Positions 7,730-20,979 of a stretch of DNA of 20,979 nucleotides are shown here, one piece after another (the stretch's first letter is position 1; each line of letters opens with the position of its first letter). The notes under the pieces are model-generated. The model was not told the origin of the DNA. It searched no databases and saw only the letters and a program-made list of their open reading frames with translations. Source of the stretch: a virus; the IMG/VR virus record IMGVR_UViG_3300027704_000203, positions 1-20,979 of that record. One strand, given 5' to 3'. The position numbers and the translations under genes are program-made.

Positions 7730-8782
7730 TTATATGATACGGTAGATGGCACGAGTCAGCGCCTCTGGGCGAAGAATCTTCCGTCCGTACATGTTCATGC
7801 CGCGCACTATGTCTGCGAAGCTATCAGGGTCACGATATGACTCTGTTTTGTTGATTTGGTTGGCAGTAGCGACAGCGGCTTGATGACCTGCAAGCAGGAC
7901 GCCATAAGAAGATGACGTGGCTGCACCTGGACCACCGACAATGGATGGAAGGTTTGTTGAATTGTAGCACTGGAAGCCACGAAGCTTGCCAGAGAACTGC
8001 AACCCATTACGCAAAACCGTATCACCCTTTTGATCGAAGTCCCGATTTACAAGTTTGGAGTCTTCATCTTCAAGGACTTCCCAAAACACAGGATCGCCTA
8101 CAAACCAACGTCCATCTTGTGGGACTTGTTGTTGATCTAGTAGACGCTTCATGCGGTTCATTATTTGTAATGGCGTAGCATCTACACCAGTGCCTGTACC
8201 ATCAGCTGAGATAGAAATTTCAGTTCCACCAGAACCACCAAATGTACCTTCATCGATGTGCATAGAGGCTAAGAAGCCATCTGCTCCGACAGGAATTGGG
8301 TCAGTACCAGACTTGTCACCTGCAACTCGTGCAGCCCCTGCTGGCCCATGTAAAACTCCAGCAGCACGTTTGTAACCAGACATATAGCCTAGTACTTCTT
8401 CATCGTAGCTGTCTTTCATTCGATAACCCGCACGGTCTGTTGCCAGAGATTGCCAGTTAACATGGGAGTGCTTTTCTTCGATGTCATCAACTTTGAATGC
8501 AAAGTATAGAGACTTATCGACTACTAACGTGAAGTCATCATCAGACAAGTCTTGTGCTTGAATCTGAGTGCCACGCTCATAGTTTTGTACTGTGATCTCA
8601 GGCTCTTTAATAATGTGAACCGTATCACCTAGATTGGAGATCTCTCCGAAGTAGTCATTGTTTGTAATTGCCTCACACACAGCACTCTTCCGAAAAGCCA
8701 TTTGAGTTTTCTTGGAGTAGATGACGGGTGAGAAATTTCCGTTGGGCAGGTTGCCATGCCCACTAGCGGTAGGAAATGCCAT
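7730..8782 (-). CDS. Major capsid protein, HK97-fold type (350 aa)
   Basis: The size, the position after the scaffold gene and the sequence fit a podovirus major capsid protein. Visible features are an N-terminal arm (MAFPTASGHGNLPNGNFSPV), a segment around residues 45-75 (FGEISNLGDTVHIIKEPEIT, VQNYERGTQIQAQDLSDDDF), and LVVDKSLYFAFKVDDIEEKH, typical of the E-loop and spine-helix region of coat proteins of this type. GRWFVGDPVFWEVLEDEDSK and the C-terminal YGRKILRPEALTRAIYRII match the A-domain and P-domain ends. An AGGA ribosome site (AAAAGGAATATTAAAATG) sets the start. An independent promoter-like element and a leader of about 240 bases lie upstream, as expected for the most abundant virion protein. 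Confidence 0.93.
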   Translation of the reverse strand: MAFPTASGHGNLPNGNFSPVIYSKKTQMAFRKSAVCEAITNNDYFGEISNLGDTVHIIKEPEITVQNYERGTQIQAQDLSDDDFTLVVDKSLYFAFKVDDIEEKHSHVNWQSLATDRAGYRMKDSYDEEVLGYMSGYKRAAGVLHGPAGAARVAGDKSGTDPIPVGADGFLASMHIDEGTFGGSGGTEISISADGTGTGVDATPLQIMNRMKRLLDQQQVPQDGRWFVGDPVFWEVLEDEDSKLVNRDFDQKGDTVLRNGLQFSGKLRGFQCYNSTNLPSIVGGPGAATSSSYGVLLAGHQAAVATANQINKTESYRDPDSFADIVRGMNMYGRKILRPEALTRAIYRII

Positions 8783-9021
8783 TTTAATATTCCTTTTAAA
8801 GCATCTCTAATGCGTATTAATAACGCCATGTTCTCGATAGTGTTCCGTCACAGGGCCTTGTGGTAAGAGGTGTTCTTTCAGGAGGATCAATCCGAAGAGG
8901 CTCTACGTCATGGATAGCTGTTTGGATACGTTCTTACGCAAGGTTACCATAAAAGTTAATGGGGCTTTTTGTAAGAAGGGTTAGTCGCTAATTATTATTA
9001 TTCTATGTAGCGCGACTAGAT
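8783..9021 (-). other. Long 5' leader of the capsid mRNA with a 5'-end hairpin
   Basis: This is the only gap over 200 bases within the late block, and no credible gene is present. If transcription starts about 7 bases after the -10 box at 9028-9033, the transcript begins near 9021 and immediately folds. TAGTCGC at 8982-8988 pairs with GCGACTA at 9012-9018, around an A/T-rich loop. Shorter GCGT/ACGC and GCAT/ATGC stems lie close to the capsid start. A 5'-terminal stem can protect mRNA from decay, which would suit capsid expression. The function is inferred. A short ATG ORF from 8829 crosses the capsid start in another frame and is probably fortuitous. Confidence 0.55.
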
Positions 9022-9027
9022 TACATA

Positions 9028-9057
9028 GTTATACCATATTATTGAGTATTTAGTCAA
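9028..9057 (-). promoter_or_regulatory. Promoter-like element for the capsid gene (copy 1)
   Basis: On the minus strand TTGACT (9052-9057) is separated by 18 bases from TATAAC (9028-9033), which is preceded by TGG and so forms an extended -10. This is a close match to a sigma-70 promoter. It starts 10 bases after the scaffold stop codon and points at the capsid gene. The element shares CTATTGAC, AAAT and ATGGTATAACTATG with the element at 19538-19567, so it is a phage-specific repeated signal rather than a chance match. It could serve host RNA polymerase or a phage-encoded factor. Confidence 0.75.
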
Positions 9058-9067
9058 TAGTTAATTG

Positions 9068-9946
9068 TCACCTTGCAGCACCTGACATATCATAAATAAG
9101 TTTACCTGACATGATAGCAGCATTTATTGCTTCTTCATTACTCTCATACTCATCTTGTGACATTAGGTTGATCTGACTTTCACTGAAAGAACCCGAATTA
9201 TCTTCAGCAATGATATCTCCTTTATCATTATTAATAGAGATATTAGCAGCTGCTTGTTTCTCTGAAGATTTTCTCTTGGCTTTTTTCTTATCATTGCCCC
9301 ATCCTACATCGATCTTAAATAAGTCAATCGCTCTAGCAGCTGACCTTGGGTCATCAGGGTTCTCAAATAGAGCATGTTGCACCCACTGGGGCTGCTCTTC
9401 ACTCCACTCATGAAATTCATCTAAATCATTTATCTCTTCAAAGTCTGGATGTAACTCTATCAATTGAGCCTTAGCAGTAGCTTGCTCACTAGCTTGAGAC
9501 TTTTTATCTAGAATAGCCATCCTCTCATCTAATGATGAACTGATTTCCTTAGCCTTCTTCATAGCTATTGTCTCAACGATTTTAGCTACATCAGGATACT
9601 CAGTAGCCCACTCTTCTAGCTCCTCATCTGTCTTTGGAAGCTTGATGCTTTCACGGGATGCCTCAGAAAGTTGTACCTCAAGTTTTGTGATACGTTCTTC
9701 AAATGCATCTTTTTCTTTTTGACTGTGCCTACGAAGATCTCCATGACGTTTTTTCCAAGTCTTTTCTTCTGCACCCTTTGGCTCAACGGCTTCCAGCTTC
9801 TCTTCTTCTGTTTCTTCTTTAGGAGAATTTGAAGCCTCTAACTCAGCTAGTTCTTTTTCTTCCTTGTCCAAGTCCCGACCATACCGCTTAGACATAAACG
9901 CAACTTTAGGTTCATCTTGTACGACTGCTTCTTGAATTTCAGCCAT
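9068..9946 (-). CDS. Capsid scaffolding protein (292 aa)
   Basis: A highly charged, Glu/Lys/Asp-rich, cysteine-free protein lying directly upstream of the major capsid gene. The N-terminal third is acidic and likely disordered (about 25-62). Residues about 63-105 (TWKKRHGDLRRHSQKEKDAF, then EERITKLEVQLSEAS) predict a coiled coil. A helical middle (LPKTDEELEEWATEYPDVAK, about 103-122) and the HPDFEEINDLDEFHEWSEEQ segment follow, then a Lys-rich stretch near 225 and a C-terminal helix. This architecture is typical of tailed-phage scaffolds, which bind coat protein inside the procapsid and leave before maturation. It follows the 50-aa basic gene by 3 bases. Confidence 0.88.
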   Translation of the reverse strand: MAEIQEAVVQDEPKVAFMSKRYGRDLDKEEKELAELEASNSPKEETEEEKLEAVEPKGAEEKTWKKRHGDLRRHSQKEKDAFEERITKLEVQLSEASRESIKLPKTDEELEEWATEYPDVAKIVETIAMKKAKEISSSLDERMAILDKKSQASEQATAKAQLIELHPDFEEINDLDEFHEWSEEQPQWVQHALFENPDDPRSAARAIDLFKIDVGWGNDKKKAKRKSSEKQAAANISINNDKGDIIAEDNSGSFSESQINLMSQDEYESNEEAINAAIMSGKLIYDMSGAAR

Positions 9947-18333: not shown

Positions 18334-18942
18334 TTAACCCCTATCCCCAAAATTATCATTATTATATCGCCTTGCTTGCGCTACACTCTTTTGCTTAGGC
18401 TTAGAAGGGGGACGCTTCCTAGCAGTCTTGGTGGGCTGACGGTTCATGTACTCACGTAATGATTCACCATCTTTTAGATCAGACTTATATACAGCCGCCA
18501 TCTTCACACCATCCTTATAGTAATATAAAGATCCAGCTTTCTTAGCTGCTGCGATAGATGTTGGTTTAGAGTCTGATGTGGTAGTGGATACCTTCTTAGC
18601 TGGCTTAGGCTTAGTGGCTGTTGGGGTATCCTTTTTGGGTATGGTAGCTAATGCACGTTTAGTAACAGCTGCCTTCTTAGCCTTTGGAGTAGCTGCTGTT
18701 TCCTTTGCATTACGAGCAGCAATGTCAGCTTTACGCTTAGCCATAGCAGCGGTACGCTTCTTAGCGGCATCAGCTTTCTTATTACGAGATGCAGTAGCAT
18801 CTGCACTCTTCTTGATACTGCTGAACTCGCCACCCTCAGTGGAAGCTGTCATGGACTTACGAGCAATGGCTCTTTCCTTAGTTCTTTTGTTAAGTGCTTT
18901 AGCCTTAGCTATACGCGCACGTACCTCTTCCTTTGTAGCCAT
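18334..18942 (-). CDS. Lys/Ala-rich histone-H1-like basic protein (202 aa)
   Basis: Residues 1-130 are dominated by Lys, Ala, Arg and Thr (KADAAKKRTAAMAKRKADIA and similar). These are followed by a Pro/Lys stretch (about 102-118) and a compact-looking segment, KKAGSLYYYKDGVKMAAVYK, then SDLKDGESLREYMNR (about 134-168). The C-terminus is basic (RKRPPSKPKQKSVAQARRYN). The tyrosine segment resembles one in small basic proteins of marine phages. Such polycationic proteins could bind packaged DNA or RNA, or be virion internal proteins. Its start overlaps the stop of the 56-aa gene as TAATG. The function is inferred from composition only; no DNA-binding fold is identified. Confidence 0.7.
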   Translation of the reverse strand: MATKEEVRARIAKAKALNKRTKERAIARKSMTASTEGGEFSSIKKSADATASRNKKADAAKKRTAAMAKRKADIAARNAKETAATPKAKKAAVTKRALATIPKKDTPTATKPKPAKKVSTTTSDSKPTSIAAAKKAGSLYYYKDGVKMAAVYKSDLKDGESLREYMNRQPTKTARKRPPSKPKQKSVAQARRYNNDNFGDRG

Positions 18943-19113: not shown

Positions 19114-19536
19114 CTATGCCTTCTTACTTGTTGCTGATTTATTTCTAAACTTAGCTGTTTTCTTAGCTACAGCCTTTGGCTGCTTCACGAACTGCTTCCC
19201 GGCAGCAGTCCCCTGGCGCTTTGCTTTTGTGGTTGCTGCATACTCCTTGGGGGACAATGCTTCTATTGCCTTCTTTGGAAGGTATCGCTCTCCAGTTTTG
19301 CTTGAGGGTTTCCCAGATTTTGTTTGCCACTTTTCTTTTGTCCACTTAGATAACTTATTCTCAGGCTTCTTATTTCCTGTGTAGCTACCACCATCATCTT
19401 TGTAATACTTAGTAGCGAGTTGCATAGCCCTTGCGGAATGCTTACCACCCATCTTAGCTTTAGCTTTTGCTTTAGCTCTTGCCCATTTAGCTGGGTCTTT
19501 CTTAGTTGCTACATTATCTGAGGATACTTTTGCCAT
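19114..19536 (-). CDS. DUF5872-like basic protein (140 aa)
   Basis: The sequence has the DUF5872-type core KWTKEKWQTKSGKPSSKTGE, then RYLPKKAIEALSPKEYAATT and KAKRQGTAAGKQFVKQPK (about 64-121). It is preceded by an N-terminal part with HSARAMQLATKYYKDDGGSY (about 33-52). The protein is strongly Lys/Ala-rich. The family is found in marine viruses and phages without known biochemical role. It is the first gene of the leftward late block. The ATG is only 1 base after the -10 of a promoter-like element, so that element could not produce a normal leader for this start. The next Met (residue 29, ATG at 19452) would cut into the conserved N-terminal part, so 19536 is kept. Confidence 0.85.
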   Translation of the reverse strand: MAKVSSDNVATKKDPAKWARAKAKAKAKMGGKHSARAMQLATKYYKDDGGSYTGNKKPENKLSKWTKEKWQTKSGKPSSKTGERYLPKKAIEALSPKEYAATTKAKRQGTAAGKQFVKQPKAVAKKTAKFRNKSATSKKA

Positions 19537-19537
19537 A

Positions 19538-19567
19538 GTTATACCATGTTAGTACACATTTTGTCAA
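19538..19567 (-). promoter_or_regulatory. Promoter-like element at the start of the late block (copy 2)
   Basis: On the minus strand TTGACA (19562-19567) is followed after 18 bases by TATAAC (19538-19543), with TGG before the -10. It shares CTATTGAC, AAAT and the 14-base ATGGTATAACTATG with the copy before the capsid gene. The ATG of the DUF5872-like gene is inside the shared 14-mer. A conventional start about 7 bases downstream of the -10 would lie inside the gene, so either transcripts from here serve later genes or the gene starts differently. The match itself is clear. Confidence 0.7.
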
Positions 19568-19630
19568 TAGTAACTAATCACCTACACTTGATCTTGTTAC
19601 AACTCAAAGCAAGTTAAAGTAGTTACAGGG

Positions 19631-19820
19631 TAAGGGGGGTAAACTTCTATATAATATGTTTATTATATGTTTGTTTATAACAGTATTAAGAGGGAGGGCT
19701 TAAAGCTGGTATGTTTAAACTTATAATATTCTTTATATGTTTTAGTTATATTATATATAAAGATAATACTCTTTGAAGGTTATGTTTTTACATAGGATAT
19801 ATTATTATATACCCCCCTTA
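19631..19820. repeat. AT-rich block framed by an 11-bp inverted repeat
   Basis: TAAGGGGGGTA (19631-19641) and TACCCCCCTTA (19810-19820) are perfect inverse copies. Between them lie 168 bases rich in A and T. ATATGTTT occurs three times in direct orientation (19654-19661, 19665-19672, 19735-19742), and a GTTTAAAC palindrome lies at 19713-19720. An 8-base direct repeat, GCAAGTTA, flanks the block (19609-19616 and 19824-19831). The layout fits an easily melted DNA segment bounded by protein-binding sites, as in some replication origins. That function is inferred. Confidence 0.6.
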
Positions 19821-19871
19821 GTTGCAAGTTATCCCATTTCCTGTACCTTTAGTCAAGCTGAAAGACTCACT

Positions 19872-19893
19872 CTGTATAAATTAAATTATACAG
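19872..19893. repeat. 8-bp inverted repeat, operator- or hairpin-like
   Basis: CTGTATAA (19872-19879) and TTATACAG (19886-19893) are perfect inverse copies around a 6-base A/T spacer. The symmetric dyad would suit a dimeric regulator, or a small hairpin in a transcript of either strand. No U-tract follows. Confidence 0.55.
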
Positions 19894-19993
19894 CAACTCT
19901 GTAGCCCGCAGATAATCGATTAAGTGTGACATTTATGCAACACTCTCTATGTACGATTTCCCATTGACACGATTTGAGGCCCTACTCCACACA

Positions 19994-20034
19994 TTGGCTA
20001 GGTTCTGCCATTGCTACTATAACTATTATAATAG
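19994..20034 (+). promoter_or_regulatory. Candidate rightward promoter with palindromic -10 region
   Basis: On the plus strand TTGGCT (19994-19999) is 18 bases before TATAAC (20018-20023), the same spacing and -10 as the two leftward elements. A consensus TATAAT follows at 20027-20032, inside a perfect 12-base palindrome CTATTATAATAG (20023-20034). The direction fits the gene at 20637, but the leader would exceed 600 bases. A further extended -10 match, TGGTATACA, lies at 20149-20157 without a good -35. These are candidates only. Confidence 0.35.
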
Positions 20035-20199
20035 AATATGTACATGTTATGGTAGTATCTGCTATCCAGGGGGGCATAGGTTCTCTATAGTACCGTCCTG
20101 GTGTACGATCTGTAATATGATGTGTGGTAGGCTCTGTGTATGGTGATGTGGTATACAGTTGAAATACCTGATTTTGTGCACACTTCATATATATATACG

Positions 20200-20310
20200 T
20201 ATAGGCCCCCCATGGCCCCTGCGTACCCCCGCATTAGCCGCATGAGGGGGGTATATGATCGCTGTGAGGCGTGGTGACCCGCATTCGCTCACCTTATCCC
20301 CCCACAATCG
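20200..20310. other. GC-rich patch with inverted repeats and C runs
   Basis: This stretch is far richer in G and C than the AT-rich DNA 400 bases to its left. It contains TACCCCC (20224-20230) paired with GGGGGTA (20247-20253), a GGTGA/TCACC pair (20272-20276 and 20288-20292), and TTATCCCCCCA (20294-20304). The local change in base composition suggests a distinct functional site, a structured RNA or imported DNA. An 80-codon frame crosses it on the minus strand but starts at TTG and looks non-protein-like. Confidence 0.45.
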
Positions 20311-20340
20311 CAGTAAACCAAGGGTTTTATAGGTCAAACC

Positions 20341-20359
20341 AGCTGATTGATAGTCAGCT
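20341..20359. repeat. 6-bp inverted repeat
   Basis: AGCTGA (20341-20346) and TCAGCT (20354-20359) are inverse copies around a 7-base spacer. It is followed by CCCCCTGTTTTG on the plus strand, not a clean U-run. It could be a binding site or a small hairpin. Confidence 0.4.
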
Positions 20360-20487
20360 TCCCCCTGTTTTGCGATTAAATTGTGTGATTTCTGAGCCGC
20401 CACCGTCGCTTTAAGGGTCAAGTACAACCATATCCCCCCTACCCTATGGGTAAATCATACTCTCAAAACCTACCCCATATCCTACCT

Positions 20488-20504
20488 TTATATCCTAGAT
20501 ATAA
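20488..20504. repeat. 7-bp inverted repeat with 3-base loop
   Basis: TTATATC (20488-20494) and GATATAA (20498-20504) are perfect inverse copies separated by CTA, an almost continuous palindrome 130 bases before the rightward gene. It is operator-like in form. A second small dyad, ACCC-TAT-GGGT, lies at 20441-20451. Confidence 0.4.
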
Positions 20505-20563
20505 GCTGGAACAATCCCTAATCCCTACTGTCATAATAGAAGATTGACGCGCATCTTTCTTAT

Positions 20564-20606
20564 GAATGAAAATAATGGCTGACTTCTTACGAAGCCATTA
20601 TTATTC
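20564..20606 (+). terminator. Long hairpin upstream of the rightward gene
   Basis: AATAATGGCT (20571-20580) pairs with AGCCATTATT (20593-20602) around a 12-base loop. GAAT (20564-20567) can extend the stem with ATTC (20603-20606) across a 3-base bulge. An alternative inner stem, CTTC/GAAG, with a TTAC loop is also possible. Both strands are U-rich after the stem, so it could act as a bidirectional terminator isolating the two blocks. It lies only about 30 bases before the ATG at 20637, so it could equally be a 5' leader structure controlling that gene. Confidence 0.5.
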
Positions 20607-20636
20607 TTTCACATCAACCAATCGGAGCAAAATCAA

Positions 20637-20979
20637 ATGGCCCTAACCCAGAATTGGCAGCACCTTGAAGCCGTAGGATTTGATGTCGCTGTTAGCCCAA
20701 AGGCAAGCCGTGGCAAGCTTAAAGTTTATGGCAAAAAGATTAATCAGCACCGTGACGACCTAGCGGGATGCAAAGCATCAGAGGGTCAACTCGTATTCCA
20801 TAAGGACGCTGTGTTCTTGTTGGAACAACAACTTATCAATGAAGGATCGATCATCATGGCACAACGTATCTTAAGAGCACGTCCTTTCGTAGAAAATAAC
20901 ACAGTGGCTGTCATTGCTATGCAATCATTGGCTGAACTCAACAAATGGAAGTCACGCTTTGTAAACAAAGATGTGATAG
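20637..20979 (+). CDS. Unknown rightward phage gene, partial at its 3' end
   Basis: The ATG at 20637 opens a frame that runs off the right edge after 114 codons. A GGAG ribosome site at 20624-20627 is 9 bases upstream. The protein starts MALTQNWQHLEAVGFDVAVS, continues PKASRGKLKVYGKKINQHRD, and contains a helical stretch (EGSIIMAQRILRARPFVEN, then TVAVIAMQSLAELNKWKSR). I recognise no domain. It is the only gene on this strand and faces away from the late block, so it may begin the early or replication module. The minus-strand 60-codon frame beneath it is a shadow. Confidence 0.75.
   Translation, partial: MALTQNWQHLEAVGFDVAVSPKASRGKLKVYGKKINQHRDDLAGCKASEGQLVFHKDAVFLLEQQLINEGSIIMAQRILRARPFVENNTVAVIAMQSLAELNKWKSRFVNKDVI

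Follow-up and report, generated by a model that had tools for sequence, protein, structure and literature searches.

A predicted sigma70-type promoter fixed ahead of the capsid gene of HMO-2011-like marine phages, with a structured leader RNA in relatives

Antiterminator RNAs of phage HK022, known as put, are structured RNAs that lie just after a phage promoter. The dimer initiation site of retroviruses is a palindromic kissing loop (reviewed in PMC7357161). In the alphaproteobacteria, over 60% of sigma70 promoters are without T at position -7; promoters of this kind are transcribed more strongly with CarD in Rhodobacter sphaeroides (PMC8407463). Phages of the HMO-2011 type are dominant in the sea, and their promoters and untranslated regions are not mentioned in the study that reports this dominance (PMC9038755). 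Here we describe a locus that shares features with each of these systems.

The DNA analyzed is a 20,979-base IMG/VR virus fragment (record IMGVR_UViG_3300027704_000203), referred to below, at its full length, as the window. Its minus strand carries, in order, small late genes, the terminase, the portal, a gene in the scaffold position, the major capsid gene and tail genes. A tRNA search of the window found none, and a search of a phage collection found no near-identical phage. We place the phage in the neighbourhood of the HMO-2011-like marine podoviruses because of its capsid protein, which is 59% (58.7%) identical to the coat protein of Puniceispirillum phage HMO-2011 and 46-58% identical to the capsids of the CRP roseophages and pelagiphage HTVC115P; these relatives point to an alphaproteobacterial host. 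The reading that we consider likely is that a host-type sigma70 promoter is used more than once by these phages, is fixed before the capsid gene, is accompanied in relatives by a leader RNA, and gives extra capsid mRNA with the aid of CarD. In such a scheme, host RNA polymerase with the housekeeping sigma factor, helped by CarD, would read the capsid promoter; this promoter, internal to the long late operon, would yield additional capsid mRNA; and the leader, likely dimerised through a loop, would determine how stable that mRNA is or how it is translated. The genes and sites involved are as follows.

7730-8782, minus strand: major capsid gene (PHROG 267 major head protein, E 2e-57)
9024-9060, minus strand: predicted capsid promoter, with -35 TTGACT (9057-9052), spacer of 18, extended -10 TGg, -10 TATAAC (9033-9028), the conserved TAT (9027-9025) and a predicted start at about 9021
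9068-9946, minus strand: gene 5' of the capsid promoter, in a scaffold-like position (PHROG 13678, unknown function)
19114-19536, minus strand: first late ORF, a small basic protein (PHROG 14910, unknown function)
19534-19570, minus strand: second promoter copy, with TTGACA (19567-19562), spacer of 18 and TATAAC (19543-19538)

The initial annotation had reported two minus-strand sites with shared bases and the same 18-base spacing, and both are present as described. The two sites are identical at 30 of 37 positions, which makes them the top-scoring 37-base repeat among all same-strand pairs in the window (the runner-up has 28/37). A chance repeat was rejected, since the best 37-base pair in 12 dinucleotide shuffles of the window did not exceed 26/37. 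The capsid-side site reads CTATTGACTAAATACTCAATAATATGGTATAACTATG (9060 to 9024, minus strand) and the second site reads CTATTGACAAAATGTGTACTAACATGGTATAACTATG (19570 to 19534, minus strand); both have no mismatches to the shared frame, for which the shuffle expectation is 0.01 matches even with three mismatches allowed. An extended -10 TG is found in both copies (TGGTATAAC), as is TATAAC followed by TATG. A generic sigma70 scan of the window listed neither site because it demands T at -7. It should be noted that the second-best repeat (28/37; positions 18389 and 18731) lies within a lysine/alanine-rich ORF, 18334-18942. Two contigs, L004 and L097, apparently represent the same virus as the window (100% identity of the capsid or the first-late protein), and each keeps the respective promoter copy.

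The same annotation placed one site ahead of the capsid gene and the other ahead of the first late gene. The first placement stands. The stop codon of gene 9068-9946 sits immediately ahead of the capsid promoter. The second does not, as the copy at 19534 overlaps the ATG (19536-19534) of ORF 19114-19536 and its -10 ends 1 nt ahead of this ATG, so that a transcript starting at the usual distance would begin inside the ORF. With the predicted elements in these positions, the second copy cannot act as an ordinary leadered promoter for this start. It is nearly an even question whether the copy is a working promoter for ORF 19114-19536 at all; the alternative, only slightly the weaker of the two possibilities, is that it drives later genes or a leaderless or internally started product, or that it is a chance occurrence or a relict. 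A start 5-9 nt past the -10 would exclude the ATG of the ORF, and a translation start far downstream is unlikely because homologues retain VATKKDPAKW close to the N terminus. Before homologues of this ORF the promoter was seen only in L097, the contig of the same virus; due to this absence from other relatives, the second copy was rejected as a conserved promoter of the same gene, a gene found widely in unrelated contigs and in other contexts as well. Conversely, the copy shows no departure from the group consensus, and in isolates this class of motif stands about 215-265 nt ahead of the first late gene. We also observed promoter-like TTGACAATG...AAAACTATA at the start codon of the first late gene in several isolates (minus strand; L084 47899, L085 49124, L086 49079), which coding constraint may explain. 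The first late gene of the window adjoins a stretch of about 1.4 kb with little coding potential (19571-20979), in the position of the divergent region that separates the early and late blocks of HMO-2011.

Conservation was assessed ahead of the capsid gene in relatives. A lack of conservation was the outcome that the initial annotation had named as speaking against the element, and the opposite was found. Of 75 usable contigs, the window included, 72 have the pattern TTGACA-N16(17,18)-TATAACTAT about 200-340 nt 5' of the capsid start; written as TTGAC-N-TATAACT, the element lies at about 200-295 nt. Usable contigs are those with sufficient upstream DNA among 80 fetched capsid relatives (57-64% amino-acid identity of the capsid, save one contig of the same virus). 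The exceptions are L007 and L008, with TTGACA-17-TATAAT, and L030, without the promoter. Among further contigs obtained with other capsid queries, the promoter is found in 59/61. In 30 whole records the promoter pattern matches the capsid site only, and the reversed control pattern has 0 matches. The annotation had also proposed that bases are kept beyond the two hexamers, which agrees with the nearly invariant TAT after the -10 at the capsid site of relatives. The C at -7 is nearly invariant there as well. The base frequencies at -7 in the main set are biased by pre-selection of sites for TTGAC and TATAAC/TAAAAC; fair evidence comes from the further capsid-site promoters, 59/59 of which have C at -7 under a search pattern that permits any base there. 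Relatives have no additional conserved block 5' of the -35, only the end of the preceding gene and a short A-run. Among 49 non-redundant capsid sites, 46 have a spacer of 16, and the 18 of the window is unusual. The capsid promoter is weaker or different in the GC-richer isolates CRP-212, CRP-3 and CRP-235, and none is recognisable in CRP-738. Taken by sequence, these comparisons show a predicted capsid promoter that is fixed across the HMO-2011-like group.

In relatives, the promoter is conserved together with a structured RNA of about 127 nt, which lies between promoter and capsid and stops about 20-45 nt short of the capsid start codon. The RNA consists of helices P1-P6; in an alignment of 39 non-redundant leaders, 90.8% of the cells are paired, compared to 24-39% in misregistered controls, and covariation is 0.382, compared to at most 0.068 in those controls, with 0 of 500 shuffles reaching 0.382. 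A covariance model search of 93 sources (1.37 Mb) gave 82 matches, one per locus and all just 5' of the capsid, of which the weak ones (to E 0.9, including CRP-212, CRP-3, CRP-235 and CRP-2) are credible mainly by position. Examples are L054:9848-9974 and L084:32130-32258 (minus strand), in addition to 80 others. A second set of 73 further loci gave 47 model matches, 46 on the expected strand; its covariation is 0.436, compared to at most 0.070 in controls, with alignments that were fitted to the model and hence favour the structure of the model. By these alignments, the leader of relatives is shown to be a structured RNA with compensatory change above misregistered controls. Rfam gave no match for the leader of the window and none at E<1 in the leaders of nine relatives, and a known Rfam RNA was rejected as its identity on this ground; the leader RNA is an unreported family that can be added to those in Rfam. 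It was not found near the first late gene in any of 45 loci.

The corresponding region of the window has the following features.

8783-9021, minus strand: predicted leader at the 5' end of the capsid mRNA, about 239 nt long and including ribosome site AAAAGGAA before the ATG; position and size as in relatives
8931-8977, minus strand: predicted stem with internal loops, UUCUUAC/GUAAGAA, AAG/CUU and CCAU/AUGG (fold z -2.3)
8982-9018, minus strand: predicted 5' hairpin of the leader, UAGUCGC / GCGACUA, the counterpart of the hairpin after the start site in most relatives

The stem at 8931-8977 resembles P3-P4-P5 of the relatives by eye only, and the covariance model (R2) has no match in the window leader, even with filters off; for these reasons we do not claim the window leader as a member of the family. 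It has diverged beyond recognition by the model. The first 97 nt of this leader have z -2.7, and the leader as a whole is not unusually stable (z -0.4). In relatives, the 5' hairpin directly after the start site has z below -2 in 30 of 49 cases.

The location of the RNA allows it to be compared with the put RNAs of HK022, which likewise are structured RNAs right after a phage promoter; in sequence and architecture the two are unrelated as far as seen, and Rfam gave no match. An antiterminator of this type, i.e., a leader that binds the polymerase and acts on transcription rather than on translation or stability, would suit an RNA just 3' of the promoter with a 5' hairpin plus a structured domain; still, we consider it unlikely. 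In phage ctYwJ313 (L093), the capsid promoter and the RNA core have an HNH endonuclease gene (29495-30256) between them, and the core remains beside the capsid start. Because this gene splits promoter from RNA, an action on capsid translation or on the mRNA is favoured over one at the promoter. Also speaking against antitermination is an alternative hairpin, possible in 28 of 40 leaders, that would draw in the 3' strand of P1 beside the ribosome site; the role of this modelled hairpin is only a lead.

An action on the capsid mRNA, which we prefer, may involve pairing between leaders. Most leaders have (A/C)GGCCA as the apical loop of P6, and other lineages have GCGC, GTAC, TGCA, TGTACA or TGATCA (alignments A2 and A3); the GCGC loop was seen only in the second, unseen set. 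The loop is thus self-complementary in each of the classes GGCC, GCGC, GTAC, TGCA, TGTACA and TGATCA. When the loop classes are placed on a capsid tree, GGCC alone accounts for at least 12 changes on branches with good support, a count that recombination between leader and capsid could inflate. Non-palindromic GGCA or GGCG loops are found in L037, ctYwJ313, CRP-235 and CRP-212; a few members that are deep or truncated have unrelated loops. Since self-pairing is kept while the letters of the loop change, the leader RNA is probably a kissing-loop homodimer. The similarity to the retroviral dimer initiation site includes an apical loop of 4-6 nt in which letters change and self-complementarity is kept, and an A on the 3' side. 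The phage loop differs in that it lies in the leader of a capsid mRNA of a DNA phage, often has C as its 5' flank and is a non-palindromic GGCA in some members, and in that its dimerisation is predicted from sequence. The broader proposal, namely that HMO-2011-like phages control capsid synthesis by a new class of leader RNA that homodimerises through a palindromic kissing loop and has its own fixed promoter, is put forward tentatively, as an idea that may well fail. If it is true, dimerisation would tie capsid output to the concentration of the mRNA; a fixed capsid promoter with a conserved, probably dimerising leader would offer a handle on the timing and scaling of capsid production.

As to the kind of promoter, the initial annotation favoured a phage-specific late class, perhaps with an extra factor, rather than ordinary sigma70 sites. 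We regard as improbable such a class, for which the phage itself would supply a sigma factor, an activator or a protein that binds RNA polymerase. The hexamers are those of the sigma70 consensus TTGACA / TATAAT, with 5-6 of 6 matches at the -35 and 5 of 6 at the -10, and the spacings of 18 in the window and 16 in most relatives are near the usual 17; the element is a predicted promoter of the bacterial, sigma70 type. The restriction to late genes was not upheld either. HMO-2011 has four exact copies. Three precede the first late gene, the capsid and a tail gene, and the fourth comes after the DNA polymerase on the plus strand. This fourth copy stands on the early strand, 31 nt ahead of the next gene after the DNA polymerase, and CRP-345 has the same arrangement; CRP-1 and CRP-2 have close but weaker versions of the motif on the early strand after the DNA polymerase. 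In HMO-2011 and CRP-13, the first-late copy is TATAATTAT, with TATAAT. Because of the early-strand copies, which are exact in HMO-2011 and CRP-345, a late-only class was rejected. In 18 proteins of HMO-2011, mostly from the early region, Pfam recognised no sigma factor, RNA polymerase or known activator. What speaks for a phage factor is that the nearly constant C and TAT exceed the needs of a housekeeping -10, and that many early proteins are of unknown function. The possibility that the conserved bases form a DNA operator or replication site and not a promoter is very improbable, since the inverted repeat ATAGTTAT...ATAACTAT, which spans the spacer and the -10 in some relatives, is absent from many others, and TTGACA and TATAAC stay fixed at a spacing of 16-18, always pointing toward the gene.

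We return to a sigma70-type promoter read by the host enzyme, at which host CarD appears to be the likeliest extra factor. CarD help is proposed because -7 is C, in both window copies as in the 59 further sites, and CarD compensates for a missing -7T. The phage site resembles the CarD-activated promoters of alphaproteobacteria in its strong TTGAC -35 and in a TATAA with a non-T last base (PMC8407463); however, -7 varies freely in the bacteria, whereas the capsid sites of the phages almost always have C there, followed by TAT. CarD alone does not account for the fixation of C over A or G. With a base so nearly invariant, a phage promoter can serve as a direct test of the CarD idea. A likeness to extended -10 sigma70 promoters is also seen, in that both window copies and some relatives have TGnTATAAC, whereas most relatives are without TG and have the spacer of 16 instead of 18.
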